62,576 nucleotides of DNA from an uncultured Eubacteriales bacterium (GTDB lineage Bacteria; Bacillota; Clostridia; Peptostreptococcales; Anaerovoracaceae): assembly GCA_902773665.1 (NCBI GenBank), contig CACYFF010000011.1:1-62576 (forward strand), written 5' to 3'. How positions within the stretch are numbered: the first letter of the stretch is position 1; every line of letters begins with the position of its first letter. Below are positions 14,648-38,181 of the stretch, piece after piece. The notes under the pieces are model-generated. The model had not been told where the DNA came from. It did not search any database and saw only the letters and a program-made list of their open reading frames with translations. The translations under genes were made by a program, and so were the position numbers.

Positions 14648-15511
14648 TCACATAAAGAAGTCATCAGCATCCTCGAGCGTCTTTAAGATCTCTTCTTCTC
14701 GGACCCCGGCAGTTCTTGCCAAAGCAATGGAACCCTGCATGGATGTCCGGATGTCCGAAGAAAAGGCATTCTCCACGAAGCCGTTAAACTCATTCATTTC
14801 TTCTTGCAGTTCTGCCTTAAAGGCCTCGAACTTCTCCTGAAGTTCAGCATCCAGAACACGTTGATTCTGCAGATACTCTTCCAACAGAGCCCGTTCTTTT
14901 TTATAGAGCTTTAGCCTGCCATATTCAAAGGCATAGATAGCTGCGGCCTGCGCCAGATCCGCATATTCACCGAGCCTTGGAATATATAGCATGCAGGACA
15001 ACAGCTTGACCATCGCCTCCAAGCAGAGCCATAAGCAATCGTCTGTGTAGGCGACTTCCTCGATTATTCCATCCAAGAAGGCTTCCGTTTTGCCTCTAAG
15101 CTCTTCCGACAAAGCCGTAATGGCAGCAACTTTTTCCTCCGGAATCTTTCCGTTAAAAAGTGACGCCGACCAATCGATATAATTCGCATATAAATCGAAG
15201 ATATGGGCGCTATACTCCACGCCATCCATCTCCACAGACAACTGTGTAACGGTTTCTGCAACAGCCGCCCAATCTTCTTTCGTATAGGCCTGTGGATATT
15301 GACCCAAGGAGACTCGCTTTAAAACCTCAAAAGTAAGGGTCGTCCCAATTTTAAGTTTCGTTAAGGCCTCGCTGTCATCATTTTCGACCATTTCATACAG
15401 ATACTTCTGCAATTTACGAAAGATTGCGATGCCATTTTTAATGGTACCGGCGGTATCTTCATCCAGCAGGTCTTCTATCGAAAGGCCTTCCAATATTGTC
15501 AAATCCATCAT
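14648..15511 (-). CDS. All-helical protein, third gene of the helicase operon
   Basis: A 287-residue protein, not recognised. It is predicted mostly alpha-helical and acidic, with no signal peptide. Residues about 175-245 are a long amphipathic helix or coiled coil (RLKLYKKERALLEEYLQNQRVLDAELQEKFEAF-type pattern), and the C-terminus is acidic (EEEILKTLEDADDFFM). It begins 10 bp after the stop of the 15522 gene and has AGGGAATAG as ribosome site, so the two are surely co-transcribed and probably form one complex. Codon use and base composition match the upstream gene. It could regulate or immunise against the pore-like protein; this is inference. Confidence 0.7.
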   Translation of the reverse strand: MMDLTILEGLSIEDLLDEDTAGTIKNGIAIFRKLQKYLYEMVENDDSEALTKLKIGTTLTFEVLKRVSLGQYPQAYTKEDWAAVAETVTQLSVEMDGVEYSAHIFDLYANYIDWSASLFNGKIPEEKVAAITALSEELRGKTEAFLDGIIEEVAYTDDCLWLCLEAMVKLLSCMLYIPRLGEYADLAQAAAIYAFEYGRLKLYKKERALLEEYLQNQRVLDAELQEKFEAFKAELQEEMNEFNGFVENAFSSDIRTSMQGSIALARTAGVREEEILKTLEDADDFFM

Positions 15512-24495: not shown

Positions 24496-24899
24496 TCTCG
24501 CTCCACCAGCTTTTCCACGATAGGATAGTCCGCGGCCGCCCAGTCCAGTTTGGGCATGTCCTTGGGGGCCAGCCAGCAATGGTCGACATGTTCCTTGCGG
24601 ACGAATCGCGGATCGGTGACCCGGCACAAAAACGTGTCCATGGTGATCTCAAATTCGGGGTAAATATGGTGCACCGTGGCGAAATAGTCATCTTCGGAGA
24701 TCTCTATGTTAAAGTCCATTTCCTCGCGCAGCTCGCGCATCAGAGCCTGGGGCTTCGTCTCCCCTGCTTCGACCTTGCCGCCGGGGAACTCCCACTTGAA
24801 ATCCGTCGAAGGGAACTTGCCCTTGGGGCGCTGCATGCAGAGAATCTTACCATCGTATTCAATGATCGCCCCCACCACTTTGTAATGTTTTTTATTCAT
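24462..24899 (-). CDS. NUDIX hydrolase (MutT/CTP-pyrophosphohydrolase type), 3' end altered
   Basis: A 145-residue protein. The Nudix box is complete: GGKVEAGETKPQALMRELREEM (shown in parts: GGKVEAGE, RELREEM). VVGAIIEYDGKILCMQRPKG and WEFPGG are typical of MutT-like sanitising enzymes that hydrolyse oxidised or modified nucleotides. ATG 24899 overlaps the stop of the MBL gene by 8 bp, indicating coupling. The last ~12 residues (ERDSATNCRISRL) are read from the complement of the pgi fragment, so the native end was probably lost; the catalytic domain is intact. Confidence 0.85.
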   Translation of the reverse strand: MNKKHYKVVGAIIEYDGKILCMQRPKGKFPSTDFKWEFPGGKVEAGETKPQALMRELREEMDFNIEISEDDYFATVHHIYPEFEITMDTFLCRVTDPRFVRKEHVDHCWLAPKDMPKLDWAAADYPIVEKLVERDSATNCRISRL

Positions 24900-25770
24900 A
24901 GGCCGCTCCGTACAGCTGCGCTGCCTGGCGCGTAAGCACGATGCCGAAATCGCCGAAACGGTAGAAGATGTTGTCCCCTTCCGTCTTCGGGTCATGCTCG
25001 CCGACGACCTCCCCGGACAGCACCTTGCCGAAGGCGTCCGCGATCTCCGTTAAAGCGCTGCCTTCCCAGATGGGGTTGTTGTGGGAGCACAGCAGCGTGC
25101 AGTCTGAGAAGCGCTCCGCCAGCTTAAGCACCGTGGACATGTAGATGGGCACCATCTCCGGGCCCTCGATGTAGGCGTACATGGGAGCCGGATAGATCGT
25201 GTCGCCGGTAAACAGCAGCTTGTTCTCCACATCCGCAAGCATGATGCAGTCCTTCGTGTGGCCCGGGGTGGAGATGACGTGCAGCTTGCGGCCGCCCAGA
25301 TCGAACACGTGGCCGTCCTCGATGGGCACGACCTTGCAGGGCTTCGTGTGCCAGGTCTTAAGGTCGAACCAGGGCTCGCCGTCGTACCACAGGGCTTCGG
25401 GCACCCGGTTTTCGGCGTCCGCCTGGAAGACGTCGCCGCTCTCCAGCCGCTTTACGTATTCGGGCAGGTTGATCAGATGGGTCTCGGGGAAGCGCCAGTT
25501 GTCGCCCACGTGGTCGAAGTGGGAGTGGCTGTTGACCAGGATGATGGGCTTGTCCGTCAGAAATTCCACGACGGCTTTGATGTTGCCCAGGCCCATGCCG
25601 GAGTCCAGCAGCAGGGCCTTTTCTTCGCCCTCGATCAGATAGCTGATGACTTCCTGGAAGTGATGCGGTTCGTAGATAGCCGTTACGCCTTCCGCCACTT
25701 TATATGGTTCGAACCAGCTGCTTTCGCAGGGGATCTTCTTCAAATCGCTGAATTTTGTAAGTTTGCTCAT
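24892..25770 (-). CDS. Metallo-beta-lactamase-fold hydrolase
   Basis: A 292-residue cytosolic metalloenzyme. The motif HSHFDHVGD (HxHxDH) supplies the first metal ligands; STPGHTKDC and LFTGDTIYP supply the next His and the bridging Asp, and CSHNNPIW the last His. This is the glyoxalase II/lactonase-like branch. Substrate is not evident. It follows a terminator, so it has its own start, and it is coupled to the NUDIX gene by an 8-bp overlap. Confidence 0.9.
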   Translation of the reverse strand: MSKLTKFSDLKKIPCESSWFEPYKVAEGVTAIYEPHHFQEVISYLIEGEEKALLLDSGMGLGNIKAVVEFLTDKPIILVNSHSHFDHVGDNWRFPETHLINLPEYVKRLESGDVFQADAENRVPEALWYDGEPWFDLKTWHTKPCKVVPIEDGHVFDLGGRKLHVISTPGHTKDCIMLADVENKLLFTGDTIYPAPMYAYIEGPEMVPIYMSTVLKLAERFSDCTLLCSHNNPIWEGSALTEIADAFGKVLSGEVVGEHDPKTEGDNIFYRFGDFGIVLTRQAAQLYGAAYE

Positions 25771-25792
25771 GTTTCTTTCCTTTGCTGTTATA

Positions 25793-25822
25793 AAAACGCC
25801 GCCTGTATTGTATCACAGGCGG
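25793..25822 (-). terminator. Terminator of the ABC-PfkB-BtpA operon
   Basis: CCGCCTGT/ACAGGCGG hairpin followed on the minus strand by CGTTTTT. It separates the transporter/kinase operon from the MBL-NUDIX pair. Confidence 0.85.
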
Positions 25823-25836
25823 CCGGGTTTGTCTTG

Positions 25837-26565
25837 CTACCGTAGCGTCTTGACTATCTCCATCAGCGTGCGGACCTTGGCCGGGCTTACGTCGCCGGTG
25901 TCCTTGCCGGTGTCCTTAAAGTAGCTGCCCACGACGGCGGCATCCGCGATCTGCAGCTGCTCGACGCAGTTCTCCGCGGTGAGCCCGGAGCAGATGACCA
26001 GCGGAAAATCGCCCAGCAGGCTGCGGAACTCCTTCAGTTTGTCCAAGGGCGTCTGCGCGCCGGTGGCATCGCCCGTAACACAGACGGCGCCGCAGCGGCT
26101 CTTCGCCTCCTGCAAATCTTCCGCCAGGGTGTGCGCCGACATCACCGGCTGGTATTTAAACCGCACGCCGCCCAAGACCAGAGCATCCGTGCGGGCCTCC
26201 TCCTTGGCGAGGAAGGCTTTCATGGAGACCTCGTCCCGGGGCTTTACGTGGCCAATGACCGAATCCAGCTGCAGAAAATCGCAGCCGTACTGGCGGGCCA
26301 GCTCAAAGTTCAGGGAATCGAAATTCAGGCAATTTACGCCGACGGGCACGTTTGGCCTATGGGTGAGCAGATATTCCAGCAGCCAGGCCAGCTGGTCGTA
26401 GGTGCCGAAATAGTCCTCTGCCAGCAGCGCATCCACACCGCCTTCCAGATAAGCCGCGACTTCGCGTTTCGCGCGCTCCTTCACATCTTCGTCCGAAGCG
26501 CCCTTCAGATGGAGCACGCCAATGATGGGTTTTGGGGTTTTAAAGACATCCTGAAATGTTTTCAT
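25837..26565 (-). CDS. BtpA/SgcQ-family TIM-barrel protein
   Basis: A 242-residue protein of the BtpA family. PIIGVLHLKGASDEDVKERA at the N-terminus, EGGVDALLAEDYFGTYDQ, VGVNCLNFDSLN, and the C-terminal VICSGLTAENC...ADAAVVGSYFKDTG phosphate-binding-like loop are characteristic. The family includes SgcQ, linked to sugar or nucleoside catabolism; the enzymatic activity is not settled. ATG 26565 has AAGGA upstream and lies inside the end of the PfkB gene (26-bp overlap), so the two are coupled. With PfkB and the ABC importer it suggests uptake and phosphorylation of a small glycosylated compound. Confidence 0.85.
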   Translation of the reverse strand: MKTFQDVFKTPKPIIGVLHLKGASDEDVKERAKREVAAYLEGGVDALLAEDYFGTYDQLAWLLEYLLTHRPNVPVGVNCLNFDSLNFELARQYGCDFLQLDSVIGHVKPRDEVSMKAFLAKEEARTDALVLGGVRFKYQPVMSAHTLAEDLQEAKSRCGAVCVTGDATGAQTPLDKLKEFRSLLGDFPLVICSGLTAENCVEQLQIADAAVVGSYFKDTGKDTGDVSPAKVRTLMEIVKTLR

Positions 26566-27439
26566 GTTTTGATCCTTCTTGAGGGGTTGGCCACGGGGGT
26601 GGCTGGCGCGCGCAGTAGGAGGCGGCCAGGTTGGCCATGTACAGGGTCTGCTGCGGAGGCAGGCCTTCGGCGATGCCGACAAGGCTGGCTGCTGTGGAGC
26701 AGTTGCCGCAGCCCGTGGGGTCAACGCTGTGTTCGACGCCGATGGCGGGTGCGAACGTGACCCCTGCAGGGGTCACCAGGGCGGAGCCCTCTTCACCTAG
26801 CCGGAAGAAACAGGGCTTGCCGTAGCTTTGCAGGCGCCGGCAGATCTCGTCCCGGTCCGCCGTGCCGAAGAAGCCGCAGGCCTCGTCGTAATTCAGAGAG
26901 AAAGCGTCCACCTGGGCGATGCGGGCCTCGATCGCCTCCTTGCAGGCGGGGTCTCTCAGGTCGTCGCCGTTGATCTCCCACAGCAGGGTCGCCTGGGGCA
27001 CCAGCGCCTTGATCTCTTCAAATTCGTCCGCGATCTTCGCAGACAGGCTGGCCTCGATATAGATGCCTTTCGTCTCCGGACCGCAGGCTTCCGCGATCAT
27101 CTGCGGGGTAATGCGGCCGGTATCCTTAGCCATCTTCTCGTATTCCTCTCCCTGGCTGCATTCCTCGGTCCAGATGCCGTCCGGCCGGTACTTCAGGGAA
27201 TATTTCAGGGTCTGGGGCAAGCATTTCTTTACGCGGCAGTCGATGCCGTTGTCCGAGAACCACTTGCCGTAGTATTCGTCGAAATCCGGCCCCGCCGTGC
27301 CCACATAGGCCACGCTTTTGCGCCAGAAAACCAGGCCGGAGGCCGCATACCAGGAGCCTCCGGGGGTGTTCAGGATCTGCGTGCCGTCCGCAAACGTTAC
27401 ATCCGTCAGCATATTGTAGCCCGCTGCTACGTATTCCAT
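26540..27439 (-). CDS. PfkB-family kinase with altered catalytic motif
   Basis: A 299-residue ribokinase-like protein. The N-terminal substrate lid region (AAGYNMLTDV, NTPGGSWYAASG) and SLNYDEACGFFG are in place. The C-terminal signature, normally DTTGAGD with Asp as catalytic base, here reads DPTGCGNCSTAASL: the base position is Asn. Either it belongs to a variant subfamily or it has lost kinase activity. It lies downstream of the ABC importer (8 bp from the ATPase gene) and overlaps the BtpA-like gene. Confidence 0.85.
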   Translation of the reverse strand: MEYVAAGYNMLTDVTFADGTQILNTPGGSWYAASGLVFWRKSVAYVGTAGPDFDEYYGKWFSDNGIDCRVKKCLPQTLKYSLKYRPDGIWTEECSQGEEYEKMAKDTGRITPQMIAEACGPETKGIYIEASLSAKIADEFEEIKALVPQATLLWEINGDDLRDPACKEAIEARIAQVDAFSLNYDEACGFFGTADRDEICRRLQSYGKPCFFRLGEEGSALVTPAGVTFAPAIGVEHSVDPTGCGNCSTAASLVGIAEGLPPQQTLYMANLAASYCARQPPPWPTPQEGSKHENISGCL

Positions 27440-27447
27440 GGCGCCTC

Positions 27448-28173
27448 CTACATGTGGATGACCTGGGACAGGAACAGCTTGAGGCGGTCGCTCTGGGGGG
27501 CGTCGAAGATCTGGTCGGGGGTGCCCTCCTCCACGATCTTGCCTCCGTCCACGAAGATCACACGGTCTGCCACCTTTCTCGCAAAGCCCATCTCGTGGGT
27601 GACCACTGCCAGGGTCATGCCTTCGTCCGCCAGTTCCTTCATGACGTTGAGGACCTCGCCGATCATCTCGGGGTCAAGCGCCGAGGTCGGCTCGTCGAAC
27701 AGGATGACCTCCGGGCTCTGGCACAGCGCCCGGGCGATGGCGACACGCTGCTTCTGCCCGCCGGACAGGGACGCGGGATAGTCGTTCGCCTTCTCCGCCA
27801 GACCGACGCGGGTGAGCAGCTTGATGGCGGTCTCCTCCGCCTGCTTCTGGGGCACTCCGCCGGCTTTGACCGGGCCCAGCGTCAGGTTCTCCAGCACGGT
27901 CTTGTGGGGGAACAGGTTGAACAGCTGGAACACGAAGCCGATGTGGGCCAGATCCTTGGTGGTGTCCTTGGAGAAGTCCACCAGCTTATCGTTGACGTAC
28001 AGCTCGCCGCTGTCGGGGACCTCCAGGCCGTGCAGGCAGCGGATGAGGGTGGATTTGCCGGAGCCGGAGGGACCGATGATGCAGACGACTTCCCCTTTAT
28101 GGATGTGCAGCGACACGTCGTCCACGGCCTTTACGTTTCCGAAATGTTTGCTCAGATGAACGGCTTTAATCAC
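27448..28173 (-). CDS. Amino-acid ABC transporter ATPase (GlnQ-like)
   Basis: A 241-residue ATPase of the polar amino-acid uptake class. Walker [11 protein letters not shown]-loop [11 protein letters not shown], signature LSGGQKQR, Walker [15 protein letters not shown] and the switch His in VTHEMGFA are all present. The start is GTG at 28173, overlapping the permease stop by 8 bp. With the permease and binding lipoprotein it forms a complete importer. Confidence 0.95.
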
Positions 28174-28846
28174 TTTCGGCCAGCCTCCTTTCCAGTCTGC
28201 GCGCGAAGTAGGAGATGGTGAGGGTCATCACCAGATAGGCCACCGTCGCGAACAGCAGCGGCAGCAGATAGTTATAGAACTTGGCGCCAAGCACGTCCGC
28301 CCGCTGCAGCAGTTCCGCCGCGCCGATGGTGGACAGCAGGGACGAATCCTTGATGAGCACGATGAATTCGTTGATGTAGGGCGGCAGGATGCGCTTGAAC
28401 GCCTGGGGCAGGATGATCTCCCGCAGGGTCTGCTTGTGGGTCAGGCCGATGGTCTTCGCCGCCTCCCACTGGCCCTTGTCCACGGACTGGATGGCGGAGC
28501 GGAACAGCTCCGTCGAGTAGGCGCCGGAGTTGATCGCGATGGCGATGGTGCCCACCAGGATGGGATTAGGCGTGAAGACGTAGTGGAATAGCGTCCTGGT
28601 AATGACAGGGCCGCCCAGGTAGAGGAGCAGGATCTGCAGCATCATGGGGGTGCCGCGGATGACCTCCACATAGACGTTGGCGATGGCTCTGGCTATCTTG
28701 TTCTTGCCCATCCTCGCCATGGCTGCCAGAAGGCCCAGCACCGAGCCTCCCGCCAAGGCGCAGATGGCCACCAGCAGGGAGTAACCGGCGCCCTTCACCA
28801 TGAACTGCATGTTTTCGGGCGTAAAGATTCGTTCGAATGCACTCAT
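28166..28846 (-). CDS. Amino-acid ABC transporter permease
   Basis: A 226-residue inner-membrane protein with about five TM helices. [18 protein letters not shown] and the EAA loop [33 protein letters not shown] (a few residues shown: [14 protein letters not shown]) are typical of the HisM/GlnP family. It is cotranscribed with the binding protein and ATPase. Confidence 0.94.
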
Positions 28847-28869
28847 AAAACCGTTCCTTTAAGACGACA

Positions 28870-28900
28870 ATCATGGCAGGAAGGGACTCCCTGCCATGAT
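28870..28900 (-). terminator. Intergenic stem-loop between binding protein and permease genes
   Basis: ATCATGGCAGG and its complement form a perfect 11-bp stem with a 9-nt loop. There is no T-run, so it is more likely a 3' stability or attenuation hairpin that raises binding-protein mRNA over permease mRNA. Confidence 0.6.
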
Positions 28901-28938
28901 GCATGCGATTTCAGTTTCTTCCGGAGGTCTTCGCCGTT

Positions 28939-29715
28939 TTAGTTGAACCACTTGACGACCAGTTCGCTGTAGGCGTCGCTGGCGGTAAACTCGTTGATGA
29001 TCTCGTTGACCTTGGCCTGCAGATTGACGTTCTTCTGGTTGGTGATGGCCTTGATCTCCTCAACGGTGAGGTCGTCGGCGATCATCTGGAAGAGGTCGGG
29101 CTCTGCGGAGATGTAAGAGTTGGCTACGCACTGCTCGGTAACGATGGCCTGCATCGCACCGGCTTTCACGGCCTCGCTCATGACGGCGATCTCGCCGGGC
29201 TGGGTGGTAAAGCCGTACTGGCCTGCCAGTTCGTTCGCCACATCCATACCGGTGGTGCCGTTGCCTGCACCGACGATGCCGCCGGCCAGATCTTCCAGCT
29301 TCGTGATGCCGTACTTGGTGGAAGCGAAGCAGGACTGGGAGGAGGTCATGTAGGTATCGGTGAACAGAACGGACTGCGCACGTTCTTCGGTGTAGGAGAA
29401 GCAAGAGATGCCCATATCTACAGTGCCTGCGGTGACCGCACTGATGATCGTGTCGAATTCCATCGGAACGATCTCGAGCTCGACGCCCAGTTTTTCGGCG
29501 ATCATGGCGGCGATATCGGCGTCCAGACCGACTACATTTCCGGCGGCATCGTAGGATTCGTAGGGGGGATAGTCTGCAGCCATGCCGACTCTCAGCTTAC
29601 CGGCGGTGCCGAGTTCGTCTTCCCAGGTTGCGATATCGCTGGAGGAGCTGCCGCAGGCGGCGAGGCCTACGATCATGCACAGTGCCAGAAGCAGTGCGGT
29701 CAGTTTCTTTGCCAT
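28939..29715 (-). CDS. Amino-acid-binding lipoprotein of the ABC importer
   Basis: A 258-residue lipoprotein with signal MAKKLTALLLALCMIVGLAAC (lipobox LAAC) and a type 3 solute-binding domain: KLRVGMAADYPPYESYDAAG, GLDADIAAMIAEKLGVELE, VDMGISCFSYTEERAQSVLFTD. These match polar amino-acid binding proteins. It is the first gene of the operon, directly after a near-consensus promoter. Confidence 0.94.
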   Translation of the reverse strand: MAKKLTALLLALCMIVGLAACGSSSSDIATWEDELGTAGKLRVGMAADYPPYESYDAAGNVVGLDADIAAMIAEKLGVELEIVPMEFDTIISAVTAGTVDMGISCFSYTEERAQSVLFTDTYMTSSQSCFASTKYGITKLEDLAGGIVGAGNGTTGMDVANELAGQYGFTTQPGEIAVMSEAVKAGAMQAIVTEQCVANSYISAEPDLFQMIADDLTVEEIKAITNQKNVNLQAKVNEIINEFTASDAYSELVVKWFN

Positions 29716-29779
29716 TTTGTTTTCCTTCTTTCTTATTTTTTCGATTGCAATTTTATACGTGAGGAGTGATTACGCTAGG

Positions 29780-29808
29780 ATTTTATTCTTTGTTATGCGG
29801 GTTGTCAA
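29780..29808 (-). promoter_or_regulatory. Promoter of the amino-acid ABC operon
   Basis: TTGACA (29803-29808), a 17-bp spacer and TAAAAT (29780-29785) on the minus strand. The ~60 bp upstream are very AT-rich (an UP-like tract) and include TGCAT/ATTCA half sites that only loosely resemble an ARG box. Confidence 0.85.
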
Positions 29809-29876
29809 GGGGTAATATTCATTATTTAATCACTTTTTGAATATTTTTATGCATTTTATTGTATAAACCATCCGTG

Positions 29877-29902
29877 CAATAAAAGAGGAGGCCGAGGCCT
29901 CC
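29877..29902 (-). terminator. Terminator downstream of the amidohydrolase and element copy 1
   Basis: GGAGGCC/GGCCTCC with a 2-nt loop, followed on the minus strand by TCTTTTATTG. Confidence 0.7.
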
Positions 29903-29918
29903 CTGTTCTATGTGACCC

Positions 29919-30142
29919 GTACAGAGCCGCTCCTCTTCGCCGCAGCTCAGGGATCTGGTGTTTCGACGGTTTCTTTCGCGTGCCGTTTCGGGACCGCGAG
30001 ACGACCTCGGCCGGTTTCGTCTTTGCGAAACGCGGCCTCAAGCAACATCTCGCCGGGTCAAGCCCGCCCGAAACGGATTCCGCTCAGAAACCGGAAACAC
30101 AGACGATTCCTTCACATCCGGCTCATAGGAGCGGCTCTGTAC
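29919..30142 (+). ncRNA. Highly structured repeated element, copy 1 (candidate structured RNA)
   Basis: A 224-bp element. The outer arms GTACAGAGCCGCTCCT and AGGAGCGGCTCTGTAC pair perfectly. The 180-bp core (29941-30120) folds as nested helices: GGGATC/GATTCC, GTGTTTC/GAAACAC, GGTTTCT/AGAAACC, CCGTTTCGG/CCGAAACGG, GACC..CGAGA/TCTCG..GGTC, GGCC/GGCC and GTTTCG/CGAAAC. An inverted copy at 31849-32090 has the same 180-bp core with seven substitutions and no indels; most keep pairing. One G-U wobble (GGGATC/GATTCC) is valid only if this strand is the RNA. It lies in the 466-bp gap 29716-30181, with no protein gene of its own. It could be a structured RNA or a palindromic mobile element. Confidence 0.7.
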
Positions 30143-30181
30143 TATTATTCCATCAAGAAAAGGACGTTTTATGTCATGCCG

Positions 30182-31777
30182 CTACTTCTGAAATACCGTC
30201 CGCCCCCGGCTGATGGTCCGGGTGACGCTTACGTCCTTGATCGTATTGGGATCGATCGAAAAGATGTCGTCGGACAGCACGACCAGATCGGCCAGATAGC
30301 CTTCCTTGATCTGTCCCAGTTCGTCTTCCATAAAGCAGGATTTCGCGGCATTTACGGTAAATAATTTAACAGCATCGTACACGGAAAGCTTTTGCTCCGG
30401 GAGCCAGCCGCCGGCAGGTGTGCCATTCAATTTCTGGCGGGTCACCGCGAAATAGATGTTTTCCAGTACATCGAAGCGCTCCACCGGCGCGTCGGAGCCG
30501 CCGATCGTGAGGATGCCGAGATCCTGCATGGTCTTCCAGGCGTACGTATCCTTCGCACGGTCGTGGCCGATCCGGTCTTCGCAGATATCCATATCCGTGC
30601 CGACGAAAACAGGCTGGATATAGGCGATCACATTGTCTTCCGCCATGCGCTGCAGAATGTGCGGCGTCGTGATCTGCGCATGCACGATGCCGTGGCGAAT
30701 GTCCGCCTTCGGGCACTTTTCCTGCGCATACTCCACCGCATTCAGCACGACCTCCATGGCTCGGTCACCGATGCAGTGCACCGCGACGGAAATGTCGTTC
30801 TCCTGCGCCTTCAGGAAAAAGGCATTCATCTGATCCTGGGTAAACAGAAGCAGACCGCGGTTTTCCGGTTCGCCGGGGTAAGGGTCGGTAATGGCAGCTG
30901 TTTTCGCTCCCAGTGACCCATCCAGCAGCAATTTGAGCGGGCCGACCCGGTACATGCCGTCCCCCTGCTTCGTGCGGTACCCTTCCGCCACGAAATCCGA
31001 GAACGACTCCTGATCCAGGAACAGACACTGTTCCCAGATCCGGACCGGCATGCGATCCTGCGCGTCCAGATTCCGATACGCCTGCATGACTTTACGCCAT
31101 CCCGCACCGGGAACAGAAAGAAGGTCGTCGCTCTGACAGGTCGTAATCCCTTCTTCGGACAGCTTATGCAGGCCGAATTCCAGCATGTTTTCCACATCCG
31201 CTACGGAGGGTTCGTCGATCACCTTGTAGAAAAGTTTTACGGCCGCTTCGTTCACCACGCCCGAATCGAGGTGGATGCGGTCTGCAAGCATCTCGGCTGC
31301 TTCCGGCAGCGCGGCGATCTTTTGGATCGCAACGGTGTTGCAGACAGCTGCATGTCCGCATGCCCGGACAGCCATCATAGGAATATCGGAAGCGATATCG
31401 TCCAGTTCTTGCCGGGTCGGATAGCGCTTTTCTCCTTCGAAGTTCTGGTCGTTCCACCCTCTACCGTAGATCCAGGTACGATCAGGATGATCTTTCCGGT
31501 AATCACGTAGGGTCTGCAAACACTCATCTACCGTCTTGCAATGAAACAGAGTAGCATTGCTGTTGGCAAATGCATAGATCGCCGTGTGCATGTGCCCTTC
31601 GTTAAAGCCGGGAAGCATAAGAGCGCCCTGCAGATCGATGCGCTCGTCGGCCTTCATCGCTAAAGCCTCTTCGTTGCTGCCGGTAAAAACGATGCGGTCC
31701 CCGTCGATGCCCACAGCCTGGACAATGCGTTCGCCATCCATCGTAACGACTTTTCCGTTATAAAACAGTTTATCCAT
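30182..31777 (-). CDS. Amidohydrolase, YtcJ-like (Amidohydro_3)
   Basis: A 531-residue metal-dependent hydrolase. The N-terminal beta domain (KLFYNGKVVTMDGERI) is followed by LMLPGFNEGHMH, giving metal ligands H62 and H64. Later elements are AVHCIGDRAMEVVLNAVE (third His), RHGIVHAQIT (fourth), and IGGSDAPVER (Asp). The C-terminal LGQIKEGYLADLVVLSDD closes the beta domain. Related proteins hydrolyse amides or exo-enol esters of unknown nature. AAGGAGG precedes the ATG. It is flanked on both sides by inverted copies of the structured element. Confidence 0.92.
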   Translation of the reverse strand: MDKLFYNGKVVTMDGERIVQAVGIDGDRIVFTGSNEEALAMKADERIDLQGALMLPGFNEGHMHTAIYAFANSNATLFHCKTVDECLQTLRDYRKDHPDRTWIYGRGWNDQNFEGEKRYPTRQELDDIASDIPMMAVRACGHAAVCNTVAIQKIAALPEAAEMLADRIHLDSGVVNEAAVKLFYKVIDEPSVADVENMLEFGLHKLSEEGITTCQSDDLLSVPGAGWRKVMQAYRNLDAQDRMPVRIWEQCLFLDQESFSDFVAEGYRTKQGDGMYRVGPLKLLLDGSLGAKTAAITDPYPGEPENRGLLLFTQDQMNAFFLKAQENDISVAVHCIGDRAMEVVLNAVEYAQEKCPKADIRHGIVHAQITTPHILQRMAEDNVIAYIQPVFVGTDMDICEDRIGHDRAKDTYAWKTMQDLGILTIGGSDAPVERFDVLENIYFAVTRQKLNGTPAGGWLPEQKLSVYDAVKLFTVNAAKSCFMEDELGQIKEGYLADLVVLSDDIFSIDPNTIKDVSVTRTISRGRTVFQK

Positions 31778-31848
31778 ACGTGCTGCCTCCTTTTCTACGA
31801 ACCTGCTTTGGTTTAGTATATCACTTTATGACAATATGGCGCCATTTT

Positions 31849-32090
31849 GTGACCTGCATAGCTCCCGGGCCGCACGAGGCGGATGTGAAGGGATCGTCTG
31901 TGTTTCCGGTTTCTGAGCGGAATCCGTTTCGGGCGGGCCTGACCCGGCGAGCCGTTGCTTGAGGCCGCGTTTCGCATAGACGAAACCGGCCGAGGTCGGC
32001 TCGCGGCCCCGAAACGGCACGCGAAAGAAACCGTCGAAACACCAGATCCCTGAGCTGCGCCGAGAGCGGCCCGAGGCTGGCAGGGTCACA
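31849..32090 (-). ncRNA. Highly structured repeated element, copy 2
   Basis: Read on the minus strand this has the same 180-bp core (31880-32059) as copy 1. Its outer stem differs in sequence but still pairs: GGGCCGC/GCGGCCC, where copy 1 has GAGCCGC/GCGGCTC. In the core, CGAGC/GCTCG replaces CGAGA/TCTCG. An extra terminal 7-bp repeat TGTGACC/GGTCACA (31849-31855, 32084-32090) closes it. It fills most of the 352-bp gap between the amidohydrolase and the TolC-like gene. Confidence 0.7.
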
Positions 32091-32091
32091 C

Positions 32092-32114
32092 AAAAAGAGG
32101 AGGCTCTCGCCTCC
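32092..32114 (-). terminator. Terminator of the TolC-like gene
   Basis: GGAGGC/GCCTCC hairpin with a 4-nt loop, followed on the minus strand by TCTTTTTG. The element copy 2 begins right after it. Confidence 0.8.
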
Positions 32115-32130
32115 CTTTTCGTCTTTCGTA

Positions 32131-33306
32131 TTACAGATCCACTCTCGTGGTGCCGACGCCCATGTCGAAGATGTACTGCTGCACAGCCAGATTGTAGTCG
32201 CACACAGCGGAGACCTTGCCCAGCTTCGCGGCGTTCAGATTGGCCAGCGTGTCGTTCAGATCCTGCAGCGTGCAGGCGCCCAGCTCGTAGGAGACCTGCT
32301 GAATGTGGTAGGCGGAAGCCGCCAGCGCGATGGTGCTGTCCGCGGCACCGATAGCCTGCTTCTTCTTGGCCAGCGTCAGGTAATCCGCCCGGATACCCAG
32401 CTCGATCTGCGTGCTGATGTTCTCGGAAGCCTGCTTCATCTGCAGATAGGAAACGTTCTGCTTCTGGTACTCCGAGTTCTTCGGGGATTTCGTCAGCTGC
32501 ACGTGGCTCCACAGCAGCTCCTGCACATCCATACCGAACTTGACGGAACCGATCTCGTTGCGCTTGGCCAGCGCAGAAGCGATGGCTTCGTCCAGGGTCA
32601 CAGACGGCATGGCCACGGGAGAGATCTCCTGGGTCAGCACCGTATTGGCCAGCAGCGGATAGCCCGCCTGCATGTTGAAGTTCATGCGGTCCGCATACCA
32701 ATTGCCTCGCGCGTCGTGCAGGTCTTTATCGGCTGCCACCAGCATGTTCTCTGCGGTGGTCACCTCCAGCCGGGAGGCGGCGCCCAGGCTATACTTTTTC
32801 TGGACCAGCGCCAACGTGTTCTTCTTGTTGACGTAGTTCTCCCAGGTGACTTTCAGGGATTCCTGGGCCAGCAGCGTTTGATAATACAGCTGGTAGATGC
32901 TCATCTCCAGCTTGTTGAGATCCGCTTCGTGGTTCGTCTCCAGGTTGGCCTTGGCGAAATCCCGGGTCATCTTGACGATCGTCGCCTCCACGCCGGTGCC
33001 CTGGCCCACCATGCCTGCCGCGATCACCATGTTGTAGGGCAGCGAGTTGATGTAGTCCTGCATCGCCTTCAGCGTGTCGTAGTTCTCCTTGTAGCCGTTG
33101 GCGATGGCTTCGTCCGACAGCTTGTTGAGACGCACTGTCTCGGCGGCCGTGCCTTCGGTGGTCATCTTCTGGACCACGTCCTCCACGCTCAGTCGGATCT
33201 CTTCCCCCTCGAACTTGATATCCGTGGTGGCGGGGTCCGCGAAAGCGGTGGCGAAGCTGCCGAGGATGAGCCCCAGAGCGAGCAGTATGCTGATTCCTCT
33301 TTTCAT
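32131..33306 (-). CDS. TolC-like secreted helical protein
   Basis: A 391-residue exported protein with signal MKRGISILLALGLILGSFATAFA. Two similar halves of long helices follow, each of the outer membrane efflux protein type: LNKLEMSIYQLYYQTLLAQESLKVTWENYVNKKN-like and ADYLTLAKKKQAIGAADSTIALAASAYHIQQVSYELGACTLQDL, the latter carrying the family's YxxG-x-(T/S)LxDL turn. The beta-barrel insertions of true TolC are not evident. In SLH-bearing Firmicutes such proteins are found both in diderm lineages and in monoderms. It stands alone. Confidence 0.8.
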   Translation of the reverse strand: MKRGISILLALGLILGSFATAFADPATTDIKFEGEEIRLSVEDVVQKMTTEGTAAETVRLNKLSDEAIANGYKENYDTLKAMQDYINSLPYNMVIAAGMVGQGTGVEATIVKMTRDFAKANLETNHEADLNKLEMSIYQLYYQTLLAQESLKVTWENYVNKKNTLALVQKKYSLGAASRLEVTTAENMLVAADKDLHDARGNWYADRMNFNMQAGYPLLANTVLTQEISPVAMPSVTLDEAIASALAKRNEIGSVKFGMDVQELLWSHVQLTKSPKNSEYQKQNVSYLQMKQASENISTQIELGIRADYLTLAKKKQAIGAADSTIALAASAYHIQQVSYELGACTLQDLNDTLANLNAAKLGKVSAVCDYNLAVQQYIFDMGVGTTRVDL

Positions 33307-33390
33307 GTGTCTTACTCTTATCCTTTATATTCCTGAGTTAGCATCAAGTAATTGCAAGGGCATTATATCATACTTGGGTCACAGACAAAA

Positions 33391-33426
33391 GCAAAGAACG
33401 CACCACGGGAAAGGTGCGCTCTTTGC
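33391..33426 (-). terminator. Terminator of the atuA operon
   Basis: GCAAAGAGCGCACC pairs with GGTGCGTTCTTTGC (one mismatch) on the minus strand, followed by TTTTG. Confidence 0.8.
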
Positions 33427-33474
33427 AAAAGGGATGCTATGCCATAAGTTGATTTCTTCAGGATGTCTTGCTAT

Positions 33475-33774
33475 TTAGATCTCCATCTCCAGGAGGTAAG
33501 AGGAGAATCCCTTGCCGTGCATGTCGACGGACAGGGAGCGGGTAACGCCGCCGCCCAGGGCCGCCTGCATCACGTAGTTGAGGCAGCAGATGTCCGGCAG
33601 TTCATAGCGGACAACTTCGCCCTTGACCATGCCCTTGAAGTGTTCCTTGACCTTCTCTGCGGTCACCTTCTCCTTGAGCATTTCGAAGTCCTTCTCATCG
33701 TAGGGAATGAGGGACAGGTTGGAGATATTTCCCTTGTCGCCTGTGCGGGAATGTGCGATCTCATAAAGTTTCAT
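33475..33774 (-). CDS. Small AtuA-associated protein
   Basis: A 99-residue cytosolic protein. The start MKLYEIAHSRTGDKGNISNLSLIPY is the signature of the domain that in many bacteria is fused to the C-terminus of AtuA or encoded next to it. CCLNYVMQAALGGGVTRSLSVD is the conserved end. It lies 20 bp after the AtuA gene and is its likely second subunit. GGAGG precedes the ATG. Role: part of an acyl or terpenoid acid catabolic enzyme complex, chemistry unproven. Confidence 0.85.
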   Translation of the reverse strand: MKLYEIAHSRTGDKGNISNLSLIPYDEKDFEMLKEKVTAEKVKEHFKGMVKGEVVRYELPDICCLNYVMQAALGGGVTRSLSVDMHGKGFSSYLLEMEI

Positions 33775-33794
33775 TGTTCTGCGTCCTCCTTTCC

Positions 33795-35141
33795 TTAGAC
33801 GGTATATACTGCGATCTCGGGCTTAACGTCGTTTCTGTTGATCAGGATGGATGCAACGGAGACGATGTCGCGGGTGCGCTTGACCGCGCCGCAGCCGCCT
33901 GCAGGACCGTTGGTGTAGAGAGCTTCCACTTCGTTGGGAACCAGGTCTGCGATAGCCTTGGTCTTCGCTCTGCCTGCAACTCTTACGCGGACTTCGCTGG
34001 GAGCGCTGGGCAGCTGATTGTCGGGGTTCCAATAGAGGGAATTGCAGCCGATGATGTCGTATTTCATCTCGTCGAACGCGCCGGGAGCGACCAGTTCCAG
34101 TCTCTCCTTGATGATCTCGAGGGCCAGCTTGGCTCTTTCGAGGCAGCCTTCGCCGCCGTAAGAGATCTCGCCGTCGCCGATGAAGCAGTCCTTGTAGCCG
34201 ATGGAGCACTTGAAGGTAGCCGTCTTGGGCTTGCCGGTAGCGCCGGTGACCCGCACACGGTCCTTACCTTCCTGGGTAAACTGGATGTGCTTGAAGTTTG
34301 CAACGACGTCGGGGGTGATGTAGTTTTCGGGATCGTGGATCTCGTAGCAGATCTGTTCCTTCAGGGTGTCTCTGGTGACCATGCCGCCGGAGCCTTCGAC
34401 CTTGGTGATGACGAGGGAACCGTCCTCGGAGATCTCGGCGATGGGGAAGCCCAGATGTGCGGGATCGGGGATGTCCTTCTTGCCCGGCTCCATGAAGTAG
34501 CCGCCGGTTGCCTGGCCGCCGCATTCCAGCAGGTGGCCCATGGCAGTGCCCTTGCCCAGCTTATCCCAGTCTTCCAGATCCCAGCCGAATTCGAAGATGG
34601 CGGGAGCCATGAAGATGGCGGGGTCAGCGACACGGCCAGTGATGACCACGTCAGCGCCTGCCTTCAGGGCCTTGATGATGCCTTCGACGCCCATGTAGGC
34701 GTTGGCGGAGACGACTTTGCCGTCCAGTTCTCTTAAGGGCTTGTGGTTTTCCCAGACTTCGACTTCGTCGTACTTGCCGATGATGGGCAGGATGTCGTCG
34801 CCGGTAACGCAGGCGATCTTCATGCCGGTGAGACCGTGCTTCTTGGCGATCTCCACGCACTTTTCAGCGGCAGCTTCGGGGTTGGCGGAGCCCATGTTGG
34901 TGATGAGCTTGACCTTGTGCTCCCAGCACAGGGGCAGAGCCTTTTCCATGCGGTATTCCAGCAGGCCGTTGTAACCCTTCTTCGGGTCCTTCAGCTTGGC
35001 TTCCTGGCCGATGGCGATGGTGCGCTCTGCGAGGCACTCGTAGCTGATGTAATCGAGATTTCCCTTTTCGATAAGTTCCAGGGAGGGTTCCAGTCTGTCG
35101 CCTGCATAGCCGGCGCCGGAACCGATGCGGATCGTTCTCAT
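33795..35141 (-). CDS. AtuA-family (DUF1446) protein
   Basis: A 448-residue cytosolic protein. IRIGSGAGYAGDRLEPSLEL and LDYISYECLAERTIA at the N-terminus, DVVITGRVADPAIFMAPAI in the middle, and the VRVRVAGRAKTKA / LYTNGPAGGCG end define the acyclic terpene utilisation AtuA family. The first characterised member acts in citronellol/geraniol breakdown; most homologues in Firmicutes have unknown substrates. It is cotranscribed with the CitMHS-type transporter upstream and the small AtuA-associated gene downstream, suggesting that the operon imports and degrades a carboxylic acid. Confidence 0.9.
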   Translation of the reverse strand: MRTIRIGSGAGYAGDRLEPSLELIEKGNLDYISYECLAERTIAIGQEAKLKDPKKGYNGLLEYRMEKALPLCWEHKVKLITNMGSANPEAAAEKCVEIAKKHGLTGMKIACVTGDDILPIIGKYDEVEVWENHKPLRELDGKVVSANAYMGVEGIIKALKAGADVVITGRVADPAIFMAPAIFEFGWDLEDWDKLGKGTAMGHLLECGGQATGGYFMEPGKKDIPDPAHLGFPIAEISEDGSLVITKVEGSGGMVTRDTLKEQICYEIHDPENYITPDVVANFKHIQFTQEGKDRVRVTGATGKPKTATFKCSIGYKDCFIGDGEISYGGEGCLERAKLALEIIKERLELVAPGAFDEMKYDIIGCNSLYWNPDNQLPSAPSEVRVRVAGRAKTKAIADLVPNEVEALYTNGPAGGCGAVKRTRDIVSVASILINRNDVKPEIAVYTV

Positions 35142-35182
35142 GATGGATTTCCTTTCGTTCTATAACTCAAGCTGCGCAGAGA

Positions 35183-36553
35183 TCACAGGTGTACGCCGCC
35201 GGTGATGAGTGCGACGAGCAGCATTACCAAACTGACTGCCCAGGCGATGGGGATGGTCTTCTTCTGGTGTTCGCCGAAGTCTACGCCGGCCAGACCGATC
35301 AGCAGGAAGGTGGATGCGGTCAGCGGGGAGATCGGGAAACCGACGGTCATCTGGCCCAGGATGGCGGCGCGGCCTACGTCTGCGGCTGCAACGCCGAAGC
35401 CGGCTGCGGTATTCGCCAGAACGGGCAGAACGCCGTAGTAGAAGGAATCCGGGTCGAACAGCAGGGATGCGGGCATGGAGATGACGCCGATGATGAGCGG
35501 GAAGAACTTACCCAGAGAAGCGGGGATGATGGAGACCAGCGCTTCGGACATGGCGGTGATCATGCCGGTGCCCTTCATGATGCCCGTAAAGCAGCCTGCG
35601 GCGAACAGCACGGAGCACATCATGAGGCAGGATTTTGCGTGCGCGTCGACTCTGGCCTTGGAAGTCTTGACGTCGGGATAGTTGACTACGGTCGCGATGA
35701 CATAGAAGACCATGAAGACGACGGCGGGCGCGAAGCCGGACTTCAGCAGGGAGACGATGGCTGCGATGATCAGGAAGATATTGAAGCCGAACAGCTTCGG
35801 GCGCTGCAGCGCTTCTTCTTCCGGGGTGAGAGCTGCGGGGGTGTAGACGATTTCGGAAACATTGCCGCCGCCTTCCGCCAGGATGCGGGACTTTTCTCTC
35901 TTGCCCATCAGCGCGGCAAAGACCAGGACGCAGACGAGACCGGCGATGACGGCGGGCAGGTCGGGCATAAAGAAGGAAACAGCGCTGGGTTCGCTCAGAG
36001 CGGTGGCCGCACGGACGGTGGGGCCGCCCCAGGGCAGAACGTTCATAACGCCTGCGGACAGGGCTACGAGGGTCGCCAGGGTGGTGCGTCTCATGCCGAC
36101 GGCGTCGTACAGGGGTACGAGGGGCGGTACGCAGATCAGGAACGTGACCGCGCCGGAGCCGTCCAGGTGCACGATGGCAGCCAGGATAGCGGTGCCGATG
36201 CAGATCTTAACGGGGTCGGTGCCCACGGTCTTGATGATCTTGGCGATGATGGGGCGGAACGTGCCTGCGTCGGTGAGGATGCCGAAGAACAGGATGGAGA
36301 AGATGAACATGACGCCGGTAGCGGCTACGGAGCCGATACCCTTGGCGCCGGTGATCATGCCGCCCAGGGACTTGAAGTTGGCTGCGAAGTTGATGACGCC
36401 GGGAGCGTTCTCCGGATCAGTCACAAAGAATCCGCAGGCGATGATGCCGGTGATGATGGGGACCGCGATGAGGGCTACCAGGGGGGAAGCCTTCTTGGTC
36501 ATGATCAGTACCAGCATGGCAATGACGGTGATGAAACCTAATACTGCTAACAT
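35183..36553 (-). CDS. CitMHS-family carboxylate transporter
   Basis: A 456-residue polytopic membrane protein with 11-12 TM helices. MLAVLGFITVIAMLVLIMTKKASPLVALI, IVHLDGSGAVTFLICVPPLVPLYDAVGMRR and MNVLPWGGPTVRAATAL are typical of the Me2+-citrate/proton symporter CitMHS family. AGGAGGT precedes the ATG. It is first in the operon with the AtuA genes and lies downstream of an operator bound, in all likelihood, by the regulator at 36744. The natural substrate may be another di- or tricarboxylate. Confidence 0.9.
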   Translation of the reverse strand: MLAVLGFITVIAMLVLIMTKKASPLVALIAVPIITGIIACGFFVTDPENAPGVINFAANFKSLGGMITGAKGIGSVAATGVMFIFSILFFGILTDAGTFRPIIAKIIKTVGTDPVKICIGTAILAAIVHLDGSGAVTFLICVPPLVPLYDAVGMRRTTLATLVALSAGVMNVLPWGGPTVRAATALSEPSAVSFFMPDLPAVIAGLVCVLVFAALMGKREKSRILAEGGGNVSEIVYTPAALTPEEEALQRPKLFGFNIFLIIAAIVSLLKSGFAPAVVFMVFYVIATVVNYPDVKTSKARVDAHAKSCLMMCSVLFAAGCFTGIMKGTGMITAMSEALVSIIPASLGKFFPLIIGVISMPASLLFDPDSFYYGVLPVLANTAAGFGVAAADVGRAAILGQMTVGFPISPLTASTFLLIGLAGVDFGEHQKKTIPIAWAVSLVMLLVALITGGVHL

Positions 36554-36595
36554 GGGACCTCCTGAAATAGTGAGATTGATAAACTTTGCACAATC

Positions 36596-36624
36596 ATCCT
36601 ACAGGGGCGAAATGGGTGTTACAA
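36596..36624 (-). promoter_or_regulatory. Promoter of the CitMHS-AtuA operon
   Basis: TTGTAA (36619-36624), a 17-bp spacer and TAGGAT (36596-36601). No -24/-12 GG-N10-GC spacing is seen, so this is a sigma-A type promoter in spite of the enhancer-type regulator next door. Confidence 0.6.
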
Positions 36625-36634
36625 TGAAAAAGAA

Positions 36635-36650
36635 TTCCAGAATGCTGGAA
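36635..36650. promoter_or_regulatory. Proximal operator TTCCAG-N4-CTGGAA
   Basis: A perfect inverted repeat just upstream of the -35 of the CitMHS promoter. With its A/T flanks it could also terminate the regulator transcript (stem GAATTCCAG/CTGGAATTC, then TTTTT on the minus strand). Confidence 0.75.
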
Positions 36651-36723
36651 TTCTTTTTTGTTCGATATAAAAACTATTTGAATTTTCAACGTTTTTCGGC
36701 GCTTCTGATTTCCTGGAAGCACA

Positions 36724-36739
36724 TTCCAGCATTCTGGAA
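36724..36739. promoter_or_regulatory. Distal operator TTCCAG-N4-CTGGAA
   Basis: The same inverted repeat, 89 bp from the proximal one and directly after the regulator's stop codon. It has no T-run, so it is better explained as a binding site than as a terminator. Confidence 0.75.
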
Positions 36740-36743
36740 TGCA

Positions 36744-38084
36744 CTACTTCAGTTTGGCATACAGGCTGGCTAGAGAAATGCCCAGCTCCTTTGCCGCCGC
36801 TTTTTTGCCCTTCAGGTCGGTGCCATAGAACTCCAGGGTACGCAGGATCTCGGTCTTTTCATACTCCCGCACGCGGTCGTACAGGGGCAGCGTGCCCCGG
36901 CGGGTGCTCTTGCCGATGTTCTCCGGCAGGTTGGCCTCCGTGATCTGCCCATCCTGGCAGGTATAGGCGGAGAACTCCAGTACAGACTTCAGCTCCCGGA
37001 CGTTGCCCGGCCAGCTGTGGTACATCAGCACGTCCAGGGCGTCCTCCGTAATGGAGAGCCGCTGCTTCAGCGTAATGGACAGCTCGTCCAGGATCTGCTT
37101 AACAAGAAGCGGCAGGTCCTCCATCCGTTCCCGGAGCGAAGGGATCTTTACCGCAAAGCTGCTGAGCGCATAATACAGCTCCGTGCTGAACTTGCCCGCC
37201 GTCACCAGTTCCGTCAGGTCCACGTTGCTGGCCGCGATGATCCGCACGTCCACCGGCAGCTCCGTTACGGAACCCACCGGTCGTATCGTATTGCTCTGGA
37301 TCGTCCGCAGGATCTTGCTCTGCAGATCCAGACTCATCTCGGAGATCTCGTCCAGCACCAGCGTGCCGCCATTGGTCGCCTCGAAGATACCGATCTGCTC
37401 GTCCGCCGCGTCGCCGTAGGCTCTGTGGGTCACCCGGCCGAAGAGCTGCGCCTCCAGGGTCGGAGAATCGAATAGCGCGCAGTTGATGGACGCAAAGGGC
37501 TCCTTGCTGCGGTCGCTGGCGTTGTGGATCGCCTTGGCGTAGACGCCCTTCCCCGTCCCGGATTCGCACATCAGAAGCACCGGCGCCCGCAGCGGCGCGA
37601 TCTTGCGGGCGAAGTCCCGGCAGGCCCGGGAACTCTTGGCTTTCGCGGCGATCACGTCGAAGGTCACACCCGTGGTGTTCGTCTGGTTGACCCGGTGCAG
37701 GATCTGCCGGTTGCGCCGCTCTGCTTCGTCGATCTTCTTGCGGAAACTGGAGGCTTCGTCCATGAAGGTGACCACGGAGATCCCCCCGATCAGCCTGCCG
37801 TATTCGAAGATCGGGTACATGTTGACGAAATACGAGTTTGCGCCCTCCCTGCGTTCCATCTGCAGGATGGGCTTTCCGGTCTTTAACACGTCGGTAAGCC
37901 TGGCGCCGGGCCGGAGCTCCCGGAGCTTGCGGCCTTCGATGGCGTTGGCCGGAATGCCGCTGTCCTTCAGCAGGAATTCCCGGTAGGCCCGGTTGGCGAA
38001 GACGATGGTCTCGTCGGCGTCTATGATGTTGATGCCCTCGTGAAGAGCGTTGAAAATTGCCTTTGCGGAATCGGACAGGACCAT
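36744..38084 (-). CDS. PAS-AAA+-Fis enhancer-type regulator lacking GAFTGA
   Basis: A 446-residue transcription regulator: PAS domain (about 8-120), AAA+ domain (about 140-370) and a Fis-type HTH (KGKKAAAKELGISLASLYAKL). Walker A is CESGTGKG, Walker B GTLVLDEI, and the Arg finger region FSTELYYALSSFAVKIPSLRER is intact. The sigma-54-contacting loop, normally GAFTGA, reads RAYGDA between LFGRVTH and DEQIGIFEA. It therefore probably works without sigma-54, like TyrR-type relatives. It is adjacent to the CitMHS-AtuA operon, and three copies of TTCCAG-N4-CTGGAA surround it. GGAGGTG precedes the ATG. The PAS domain may sense a pathway metabolite. Confidence 0.9.
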   Translation of the reverse strand: MVLSDSAKAIFNALHEGINIIDADETIVFANRAYREFLLKDSGIPANAIEGRKLRELRPGARLTDVLKTGKPILQMERREGANSYFVNMYPIFEYGRLIGGISVVTFMDEASSFRKKIDEAERRNRQILHRVNQTNTTGVTFDVIAAKAKSSRACRDFARKIAPLRAPVLLMCESGTGKGVYAKAIHNASDRSKEPFASINCALFDSPTLEAQLFGRVTHRAYGDAADEQIGIFEATNGGTLVLDEISEMSLDLQSKILRTIQSNTIRPVGSVTELPVDVRIIAASNVDLTELVTAGKFSTELYYALSSFAVKIPSLRERMEDLPLLVKQILDELSITLKQRLSITEDALDVLMYHSWPGNVRELKSVLEFSAYTCQDGQITEANLPENIGKSTRRGTLPLYDRVREYEKTEILRTLEFYGTDLKGKKAAAKELGISLASLYAKLK

Positions 38085-38108
38085 GGGAGCACCTCCATGG
38101 TTCTATAA

Positions 38109-38133
38109 TTCCAGAAGCCTGGAACAATGTCAA
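38109..38133 (-). promoter_or_regulatory. Regulator promoter with operator in the spacer
   Basis: On the minus strand TTGACA (38128-38133) is followed 17 bp later by AATTAT. TTCCAG-N4-CTGGAA (38109-38124) lies exactly between -35 and -10, the position expected for autorepression. Confidence 0.7.
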
Positions 38134-38181
38134 GAATGATTTCATTCAAGACGCCCTATGGTCCGTCTTTTCCGCAATTTC

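Follow-up and report, generated by a model that had tools for sequence, protein, structure and literature searches.

A branched hairpin with a conserved head and locus-specific stalks in uncultured Clostridia: a candidate non-autonomous mobile DNA element whose inward-facing pairs may bound gene cassettes

Several families of intergenic palindromic repeats have been described in bacteria, among them ERIC/IRU, YPAL, BOX, RUP and SPRITE, some of which measure roughly 100-170 bp; none of them is known to show an inward-paired arrangement around foreign cargo. In integrons, the attC sites fold into hairpins whose sequence varies and which delimit mobile gene cassettes, and each cassette carries one attC site in a single orientation. 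RUP and SPRITE repeats are named in PMC10969869, and, according to PMC13367494, the composites known as TIME-COMP use two small non-autonomous elements as their bounds. In this work we analyzed a stretch of 62,576 nucleotides (the window), which is contig 11 of the genome of an uncultured Eubacteriales bacterium (G000; 2.22 Mb, 41 contigs), and a structured element that it carries in two inward-facing copies. For these copies an earlier reading made from the letters only (the sequence-only reading) had proposed a structured RNA or a palindromic mobile element. We conclude, with a probability of about 0.58, that the element is a non-autonomous mobile DNA hairpin, and that inward pairs of it act as the ends of gene cassettes. 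The structure is indeed kept by compensatory change, and the evidence favors a mobile DNA palindrome over an RNA gene because of the pattern of G-U and A-C pairs, the scattered, locus-specific copies, and the presence or absence of inward pairs with cargo of low guanine-cytosine content (GC).

Positions 29941-30120 of the window and the reverse complement of 31880-32059 align without gaps and differ at 7 of 180 positions, as had been claimed. A covariance model that had been built including these two copies places the conserved head of copy 1 at 29946-30112 on the + strand (186.7 bits, E 8.9e-48), in agreement with its fold, and that of copy 2 at 31888-32054 on the - strand (193.3 bits, E 1.5e-49). 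The proposed folding holds: copy 1 together with its outer stem reaches -119.2 kcal/mol on the + strand (z -9.39) and -130.9 kcal/mol on the - strand (z -9.77), and on either strand 0 of 200 shuffles equaled it. The differing closing stems GAGCCGC/GCGGCTC and GGGCCGC/GCGGCCC are also present in the sequence. One compensatory pair accounts for two of the seven substitutions (30001/30048, A-T to C-G), position 30108 (partner 29952) goes from G-T to G-C, position 30047 (partner 30002) gives C-G where the consensus structure would have a C-A mismatch, and the remaining three (29993, 30023 and 30061) fall at unpaired positions. The A-U to C-G and the G-U to G-C changes cited in the sequence-only reading are therefore supported, and its A-U to G-U change at 29993 is not. 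Two copies alone are thin evidence for such a pattern; when further homologues with compensatory change were looked for, the covariation among 31 copies proved overwhelming.

Four copies of the element are found in G000. A DNA search located the family in 6 of 61 genomes, all of one genus, and when 296 genomes of the bacterial family were searched with a covariance model of 22 copies, 32 matches were obtained, spread over 8 genomes and 2 of 92 genera, under a strict filter that may miss weak matches. Within the genus, seven of eight genomes have 1-9 copies each and the eighth (G006) has none; the only carrier from another genus, G097, has two. The 22 copies correspond to 24 near full-length copies minus L019 and L005 (L005 being an orthologue), and the alignment of 31 copies to 39 rows minus 8 partial or antisense matches. 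The head, of about 170 bases, has the form of a long imperfect hairpin interrupted by internal loops; at its end is a three-way junction from which a longer arm and a short arm emerge. In the 31 copies 96.4% of 1664 cells are paired, as opposed to 37-47% after sliding the partners, 41 of 54 pairs show two-sided change, and 0 of 500 shuffles were as high on any of five measures; these values come from an alignment fitted to the model, which favors a high pairing score. Some unpaired bases are invariant in 31/31 copies, namely CT and C..CA flanking the longer arm, and TC lower down.

The head is placed on a stalk that is mostly unrelated from one copy to another. The stalks are self-complementary, exceeding in 24 of 29 copies the 95th percentile, and in 17 of 29 the 99th, of 812 swapped-flank controls (the orthologues L005 and L019 were excluded), and the left flanks of different copies have a mean identity of 27%, with the exception of the two G097 copies, which share a stalk. 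The stalks do not simply evolve fast, given that the orthologous copies L002/L005 and L003/L019 retain related stalks, and the two copies on contig C52 of genome G003 have heads that are 97.6% identical and different stalks. The motif GTGACCC/GGGTCAC is partly shared, at some outer ends only. Repeats of the CCTGAGCCTGTCGAAGGGC and TGAGCTTGTCGAAGCA types adjoin L003, L011, L019 and L027, and in L019 and L027 they are found inside the element. At L028 (G003:C16:56492-56522) only the right inner arm is left, yet by eye it sits on a matching outer stem; this is an internal deletion of the head.

Strong covariation, deep fold z-scores and invariant unpaired bases across distant subfamilies would be expected of a structured non-coding RNA that exists in several copies, has a regulatory or catalytic role and is selected on its transcript, and 20 of 30 copies are located at the 3' side of a gene reading toward them (genes were called here and below with a home-made caller). 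The pattern of base-pair change points in another direction. The cells of the 22 copies comprise 1131 Watson-Crick, 34 G-U, 14 A-C and 9 other pairs, and 22 of the 34 G-U cells represent one invariant loop-closing T-G, which leaves 12 variable G-U against 14 A-C. On the tree of 31 copies, 13 changes proceed via G-U, 18 via A-C and 28 are of other kinds; in addition, double changes from one Watson-Crick pair to another number 115, and in 50 of these no G-U intermediate could bridge the two pairs. Since an A-C pair on one strand is a G-U pair on the other, neither strand is favored, and this symmetry argues against a preferred strand. In contrast, 22 transfer RNAs from the fetched loci gave 430 Watson-Crick, 40 G-U and 0 A-C pairs, although the ARAGORN brackets may omit mismatches, and for ribosomal RNA PMC8794818 states that G-U or U-G pairs are involved in 78.5% of the two-step compensatory changes. 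By themselves the double changes are no proof of a DNA form, because the same paper describes one-step double changes of the same types as common in ribosomal RNA, 61% of them of the A-T/G-C type, compared with 65 of the 115 found here. It is the G-U/A-C balance that agrees better with a DNA hairpin, or with stems repaired through template switching, than with a single functional transcript. The occurrence of the family in just 8 of the 296 genomes and the mostly unrelated stalks also speak against a non-coding RNA, and we consider it unlikely.

The second line of evidence is the arrangement of the copies. Three inverted pairs are found within 3 kb, and all have their right ends inward: the pair in the window, the pair on contig C52 of G003 (L152, 4140-4305 and 5760-5925) and the pair on contig C10 of G003 (L157, 2057-2222 and 4899-5064). 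G004 has another pair, arranged as a direct tandem (L156, G004:C23, 801-1413), which includes two full copies and one partial copy, 250 bp apart. At C52, a unit of 1.9 kb formed by element, two open reading frames (ORFs) and element in G003 corresponds to 15 unmatched bp in its sister species G000, between flanks that are 97% and 92% identical; at C10, element, three genes and element (3.1 kb) correspond to 13 unmatched bp in G000, and the flanks are 98% and 96% identical. Each of these two blocks starts beside a terminator-like hairpin. The C10 cargo encodes an HTH_3 regulator, an SPFH/Band 7 protein and a zinc-ribbon protein, and the two ORFs of C52 gave no match in Pfam, NCBIfam or PADLOC. 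All five cargo genes have a GC of 0.38-0.41, whereas five flanking genes have 0.53-0.64 (the tail of groEL at C10, scored on the wrong strand, was omitted), and the low-GC blocks are probably foreign. No DNA match to the C10 cargo exists in the seven remaining genomes of the genus; the C52 cargo has none in G000, the sole genome searched for it. Near the C52 pair, about 600 bp of G003 (L152, 2693-3299) are absent from G000 (G000:C2, 75967-75976) and overlap a gene whose product looks J-domain-like by eye.

An asymmetry is also observed in the flanks of the copies. When both sides differ by at least 0.09 in GC (10 of 28 copies), the right side is the lower one in 10 of 10, with a two-sided sign test of 0.002, or 0.008 when each pair is counted once (8/8); the cut-off was chosen after inspection of the data, and for all 27 unequal copies the right side is lower in 20 versus 7 (p 0.02). 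In this comparison the orthologues L005 and L019 and the copy at a contig end, L010, were excluded. Two fetched contigs of G007 are AT-richer overall, which calls for caution about this polarity. A low-GC islet lies beside L003 in G000 and is bounded by inverted AT-rich arms (L204, G000:C10:5100-25000, at 14746-14863 and 19326-19443); these arms are made of small hairpins (TGTCTTAGAAAT..., AAACTGACTTAGAAA...) unmatched by the models of the element. The islet is a hypervariable spot, where the sister species differ in the genes beside a shared small helix-turn-helix (HTH) gene (L204 13990-19300 and L205 13147-19300). The G003 version of this L003/L019 islet includes a nucleotidyltransferase/HEPN pair, and a search with the second model found no second element at the far end of the islet.

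We propose that the active form of the element would be the folded DNA hairpin and not a transcript, and that it would be recognized by an enzyme supplied in trans. This predicted enzyme, encoded elsewhere, would move the element singly or as an inward-facing pair carrying the genes in between, and a new stalk would be formed or gained at every site, perhaps via template switching. A new kind of gene-cassette system in which two inward heads are the portable ends of whatever genes lie between them, the block is moved by an enzyme of the host or of a helper, and a fresh stalk arises at the new site when the target sequence is copied into a perfect hairpin, leaving ends without a fixed sequence, is a more specific proposal that we hold as quite doubtful.

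Several observations speak against a mobile hairpin, beyond the double changes shared with ribosomal RNA and the invariant unpaired bases, which would suit an RNA too. The lower GC of the right side may partly reflect longer intergenic DNA, and the members of a pair are not independent. Target duplications, suggested by the sequence-only reading as a check of mobility, were not recognized by eye at the C10 and C52 junctions; L004 has GTTGACAA on both sides, though this may be a native promoter element. No linked transposase was found, Y1_Tnp being the one family searched; this domain is present in 3 of the 8 (incomplete) genomes of the genus and absent from the carriers G000, G002, G004 and G005, and a Y1/REP transposase was discarded as the mover because its presence does not correlate with the copies. 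None of the sites compared is a clean single-copy empty site: the L004 site in G003 and G001 and the L024 site in G000 hold unrelated intergenic DNA, and at the L026 site in G000 the right flank is wholly different. In G001, G002 and G005 another gene occupies the C10 slot, whose neighbors are a chaperonin gene on one side and a VanY-type gene on the other; this other gene has S-layer homology (SLH) domains in G005 and is alike by eye in G001 and G002, so that the block of G003 seems to have replaced it; G000 lacks this SLH-type gene in the slot. As for the window, the amidohydrolase gene enclosed by the pair has a GC of 0.56 and a GC at third codon positions of 0.69, which are ordinary for the host, and G003 was rejected as an empty site for copy 1 because half of the left stem is retained. 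Since neither a transposase, nor a target duplication, nor a clean single-copy empty site was found, we infer the mobility of the unit, as opposed to its loss.

A different explanation is that the copies are passive old palindromes with no mobility of their own, kept perfect by template switching, homogenized between nearby copies and located at breakpoints and variable islets because palindromes tend to break. Template switching is reported in PMC8794818 to create and repair hairpin stems in one step. The clustering of adjacent double changes expected of it is weak: on single branches of the 31-copy tree there are 17 versus 10.0 expected, a number reached in 21 of 2000 simulations, and among the nearest 24 copies 3 versus 2.0 expected, reached in 606 of 2000. 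Nearby copies are nearest kin in the case of the partners at C52 (97.6%) and C10 (86.7%) and of the copies of the G004 tandem; those of the window are 95.8% alike, and only the G003 orthologue of copy 2 is closer. This kinship of pair members counts in favor of a mobile hairpin as well. Copy 1 of the window is also located at a rearranged junction, between two inverted blocks, where the gene order differs from that of G002 and G005. Passive palindromes do not account for similar heads occupying unrelated sites in several species, nor for the inward facing of the pairs and the low GC of the right side, and this makes them an improbable explanation. Each of those blocks, at 25.8-29.7 kb and at 30.2-38.1 kb of the window, is in opposite orientation in G005 (window 24500-38134 versus L153 and L154), and G002 fits the order of G005 where its stretch reaches, that is the first block and the end at 37.5-38.1 kb.

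A large bidirectional terminator, or a hairpin that stabilizes messenger RNA, lying between genes and duplicated and retained for that role, would have to pair on both strands because both are transcribed, which agrees with the G-U and A-C symmetry, with the 27 of 31 copies that overlap no called gene (4 do), and with the plain terminator hairpin that takes the place of the element at the L024 site of the sister species G000; this is also improbable, since 13 of 31 copies are already accompanied, within 130 bp, by a terminator-like hairpin separate from the element, no consistent T-run was seen by eye at the foot of the element, and inward pairs around low-GC cargo would remain unexplained. 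Those separate hairpins lie to the left of 10 of the 31 copies and to the right of 5, a difference too weak to sustain a fixed orientation to terminators. A coding element was discarded: stops are few on the element strand, but the core lengths, of 165-175 nt, vary in non-multiples of three, so that no reading frame is preserved.

In the window, the left arm of the locus-specific outer stem of copy 1, GTACAGAGCCGCTCCT (29919-29934, + strand), forms a perfect 16-bp pairing with the right arm, AGGAGCGGCTCTGTAC (30127-30142, + strand). The outer left end of this copy is GTGACCCG (29912-29919, + strand), a sequence found beside several other copies too, and a script scan detected a terminator-like hairpin with a T-rich tail that reads toward copy 1 (29885-29912, + strand). 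GTGACCCG was dropped as an insertion target or terminal repeat: it occurs 17 times in the window versus 2.05 expected, mostly as codons by eye. A T-run followed by GTGACCCG has 50 matches in G000, some sites being counted twice, versus 3 in a reversed control; the role of the 8-mer is uncertain because in G000 it is mostly coding by eye. In copy 2, the outer-stem arm CGGGCCGC (31866-31873, - strand) is the complement of GCGGCCCG (32066-32073, - strand); outside this stem there is a further pairing, approximately GTGACC/GGTCAC, and the outermost arm, seen by eye, is GTGACCTGC on the top strand (31849-31857; annotated on the - strand), opposite GCAGGGTCAC at 32080-32089. A terminator-like hairpin with a T-rich tail, found by the same kind of scan and belonging to the upstream gene, reads toward copy 2 (32086-32119, - strand). 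The gene enclosed by both inward-facing copies encodes an amidohydrolase (Amidohydro_3, PF07969, E 4.9e-99; 30182-31777, - strand). The neighboring gene (32131-33306, - strand) encodes a member of the outer membrane efflux protein family (OEP, PF02321, E 3.2e-13); as the titles of this genome's relatives name Clostridia or Bacillota, the gene suggests that the lineage has an outer membrane.

G003 shares copy 2, at the same place (L005), and does not share copy 1; from the left half of the stem of copy 1 its sequence passes directly to a point about 35 bp past the element, with GCCGCT shared at the join, and this state looks like a deletion through GCCGCT. In G005 the amidohydrolase gene adjoins the same downstream genes, and neither element is present. 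Given this, and the ordinary composition of the gene, the window pair shows the arrangement and is not a proven cassette.

A DNA pattern found 18 stretches in a collection of species genomes, 16 of them in five metagenome-assembled genomes that match the genus (RGIG8458, RGIG7540, RGIG1565, RGIG8025 and RUI514, titled Bacillota or Clostridia); the titles of the four RGIG genomes indicate stomach or rumen samples from water deer, buffalo and goat. The two stretches outside the genus (Verrucomicrobia L104 and Betaproteobacteria L109) are probably chance matches. Phage and plasmid records gave zero blastn matches to the element, viral contigs gave 0 for two patterns, and no relative of the one cargo protein searched there, the SPFH protein. 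In Rfam the whole window has zero matches at gathering score, in line with the family's claimed absence, and below threshold the region 29800-32200 has 5 chance-level matches (E 0.085-8.9). Among the matches listed from the open-access literature, no title describes the element. With a 90-residue ORF through copy 2 as the query, 6 of 8 candidates proved to be proteins found by the search; none of their contigs exceeds 1,272 bases, and they may be read as translated copies of the element. By eye, L026 (G003:C70) looks chimeric, its lower arms being of the common subfamily and its tip like the divergent C10 pair, which suggests an exchange between copies.

Covariation supports one structure, yet it cannot separate an RNA from a DNA hairpin. 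If the element is a mobile DNA hairpin, a structure that passes the covariation tests used for non-coding RNA would be a DNA structure, and the balance of G-U against A-C would offer a simple test for other orphan candidates for structured RNAs. It would also add a route by which small foreign gene blocks, with no mobility genes of their own, enter the chromosomes of uncultured gut bacteria, and it would pose the question of how a conserved head comes to stand on a different matching stalk at each site.

Compared with the integron, the element has two heads facing inward instead of one site per cassette, and the attC core motifs GTTRRRY / RYYYAAC are present in 2 of 31 copies and absent from 29, for which reason identity with attC was rejected. 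REPINs and REP sequences are, like the element, extragenic hairpins that are thought to move via single-stranded DNA and show compensatory changes along the hairpin; as described in PMC3116915, REPINs have conserved ends with a less conserved spacer and lie near a RAYT gene, whereas here the middle is the conserved part, there are 1-9 copies per genome, and no Y1 transposase was found in G000. Miniature inverted-repeat transposable elements (MITEs) and TIME-COMPs are also short non-autonomous palindromes, two copies of which, direct or inverted, can bound and mobilize genes, and, according to PMC13367494 and PMC10969869, they derive from known transposons and TIMEs are mostly plasmid-borne. 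The element differs from them in that stalk ends vary between most copies around a conserved and branched middle, and in that no parent transposon was found, Y1_Tnp being the family searched. It fails a defining feature of each of MITEs, REPINs and attC sites: in place of the fixed terminal inverted repeats common to MITE copies it has left flanks of 27% identity, it lacks the resident RAYT and the conserved ends of REPINs, and it lacks the core motifs of attC. With MITEs it shares a size of about 170-220 bp, within their range of 50-500 bp, and no protein-coding capacity, and with the TIME-COMPs it shares, at C52 and C10, two copies that bound genes as one unit of presence or absence.

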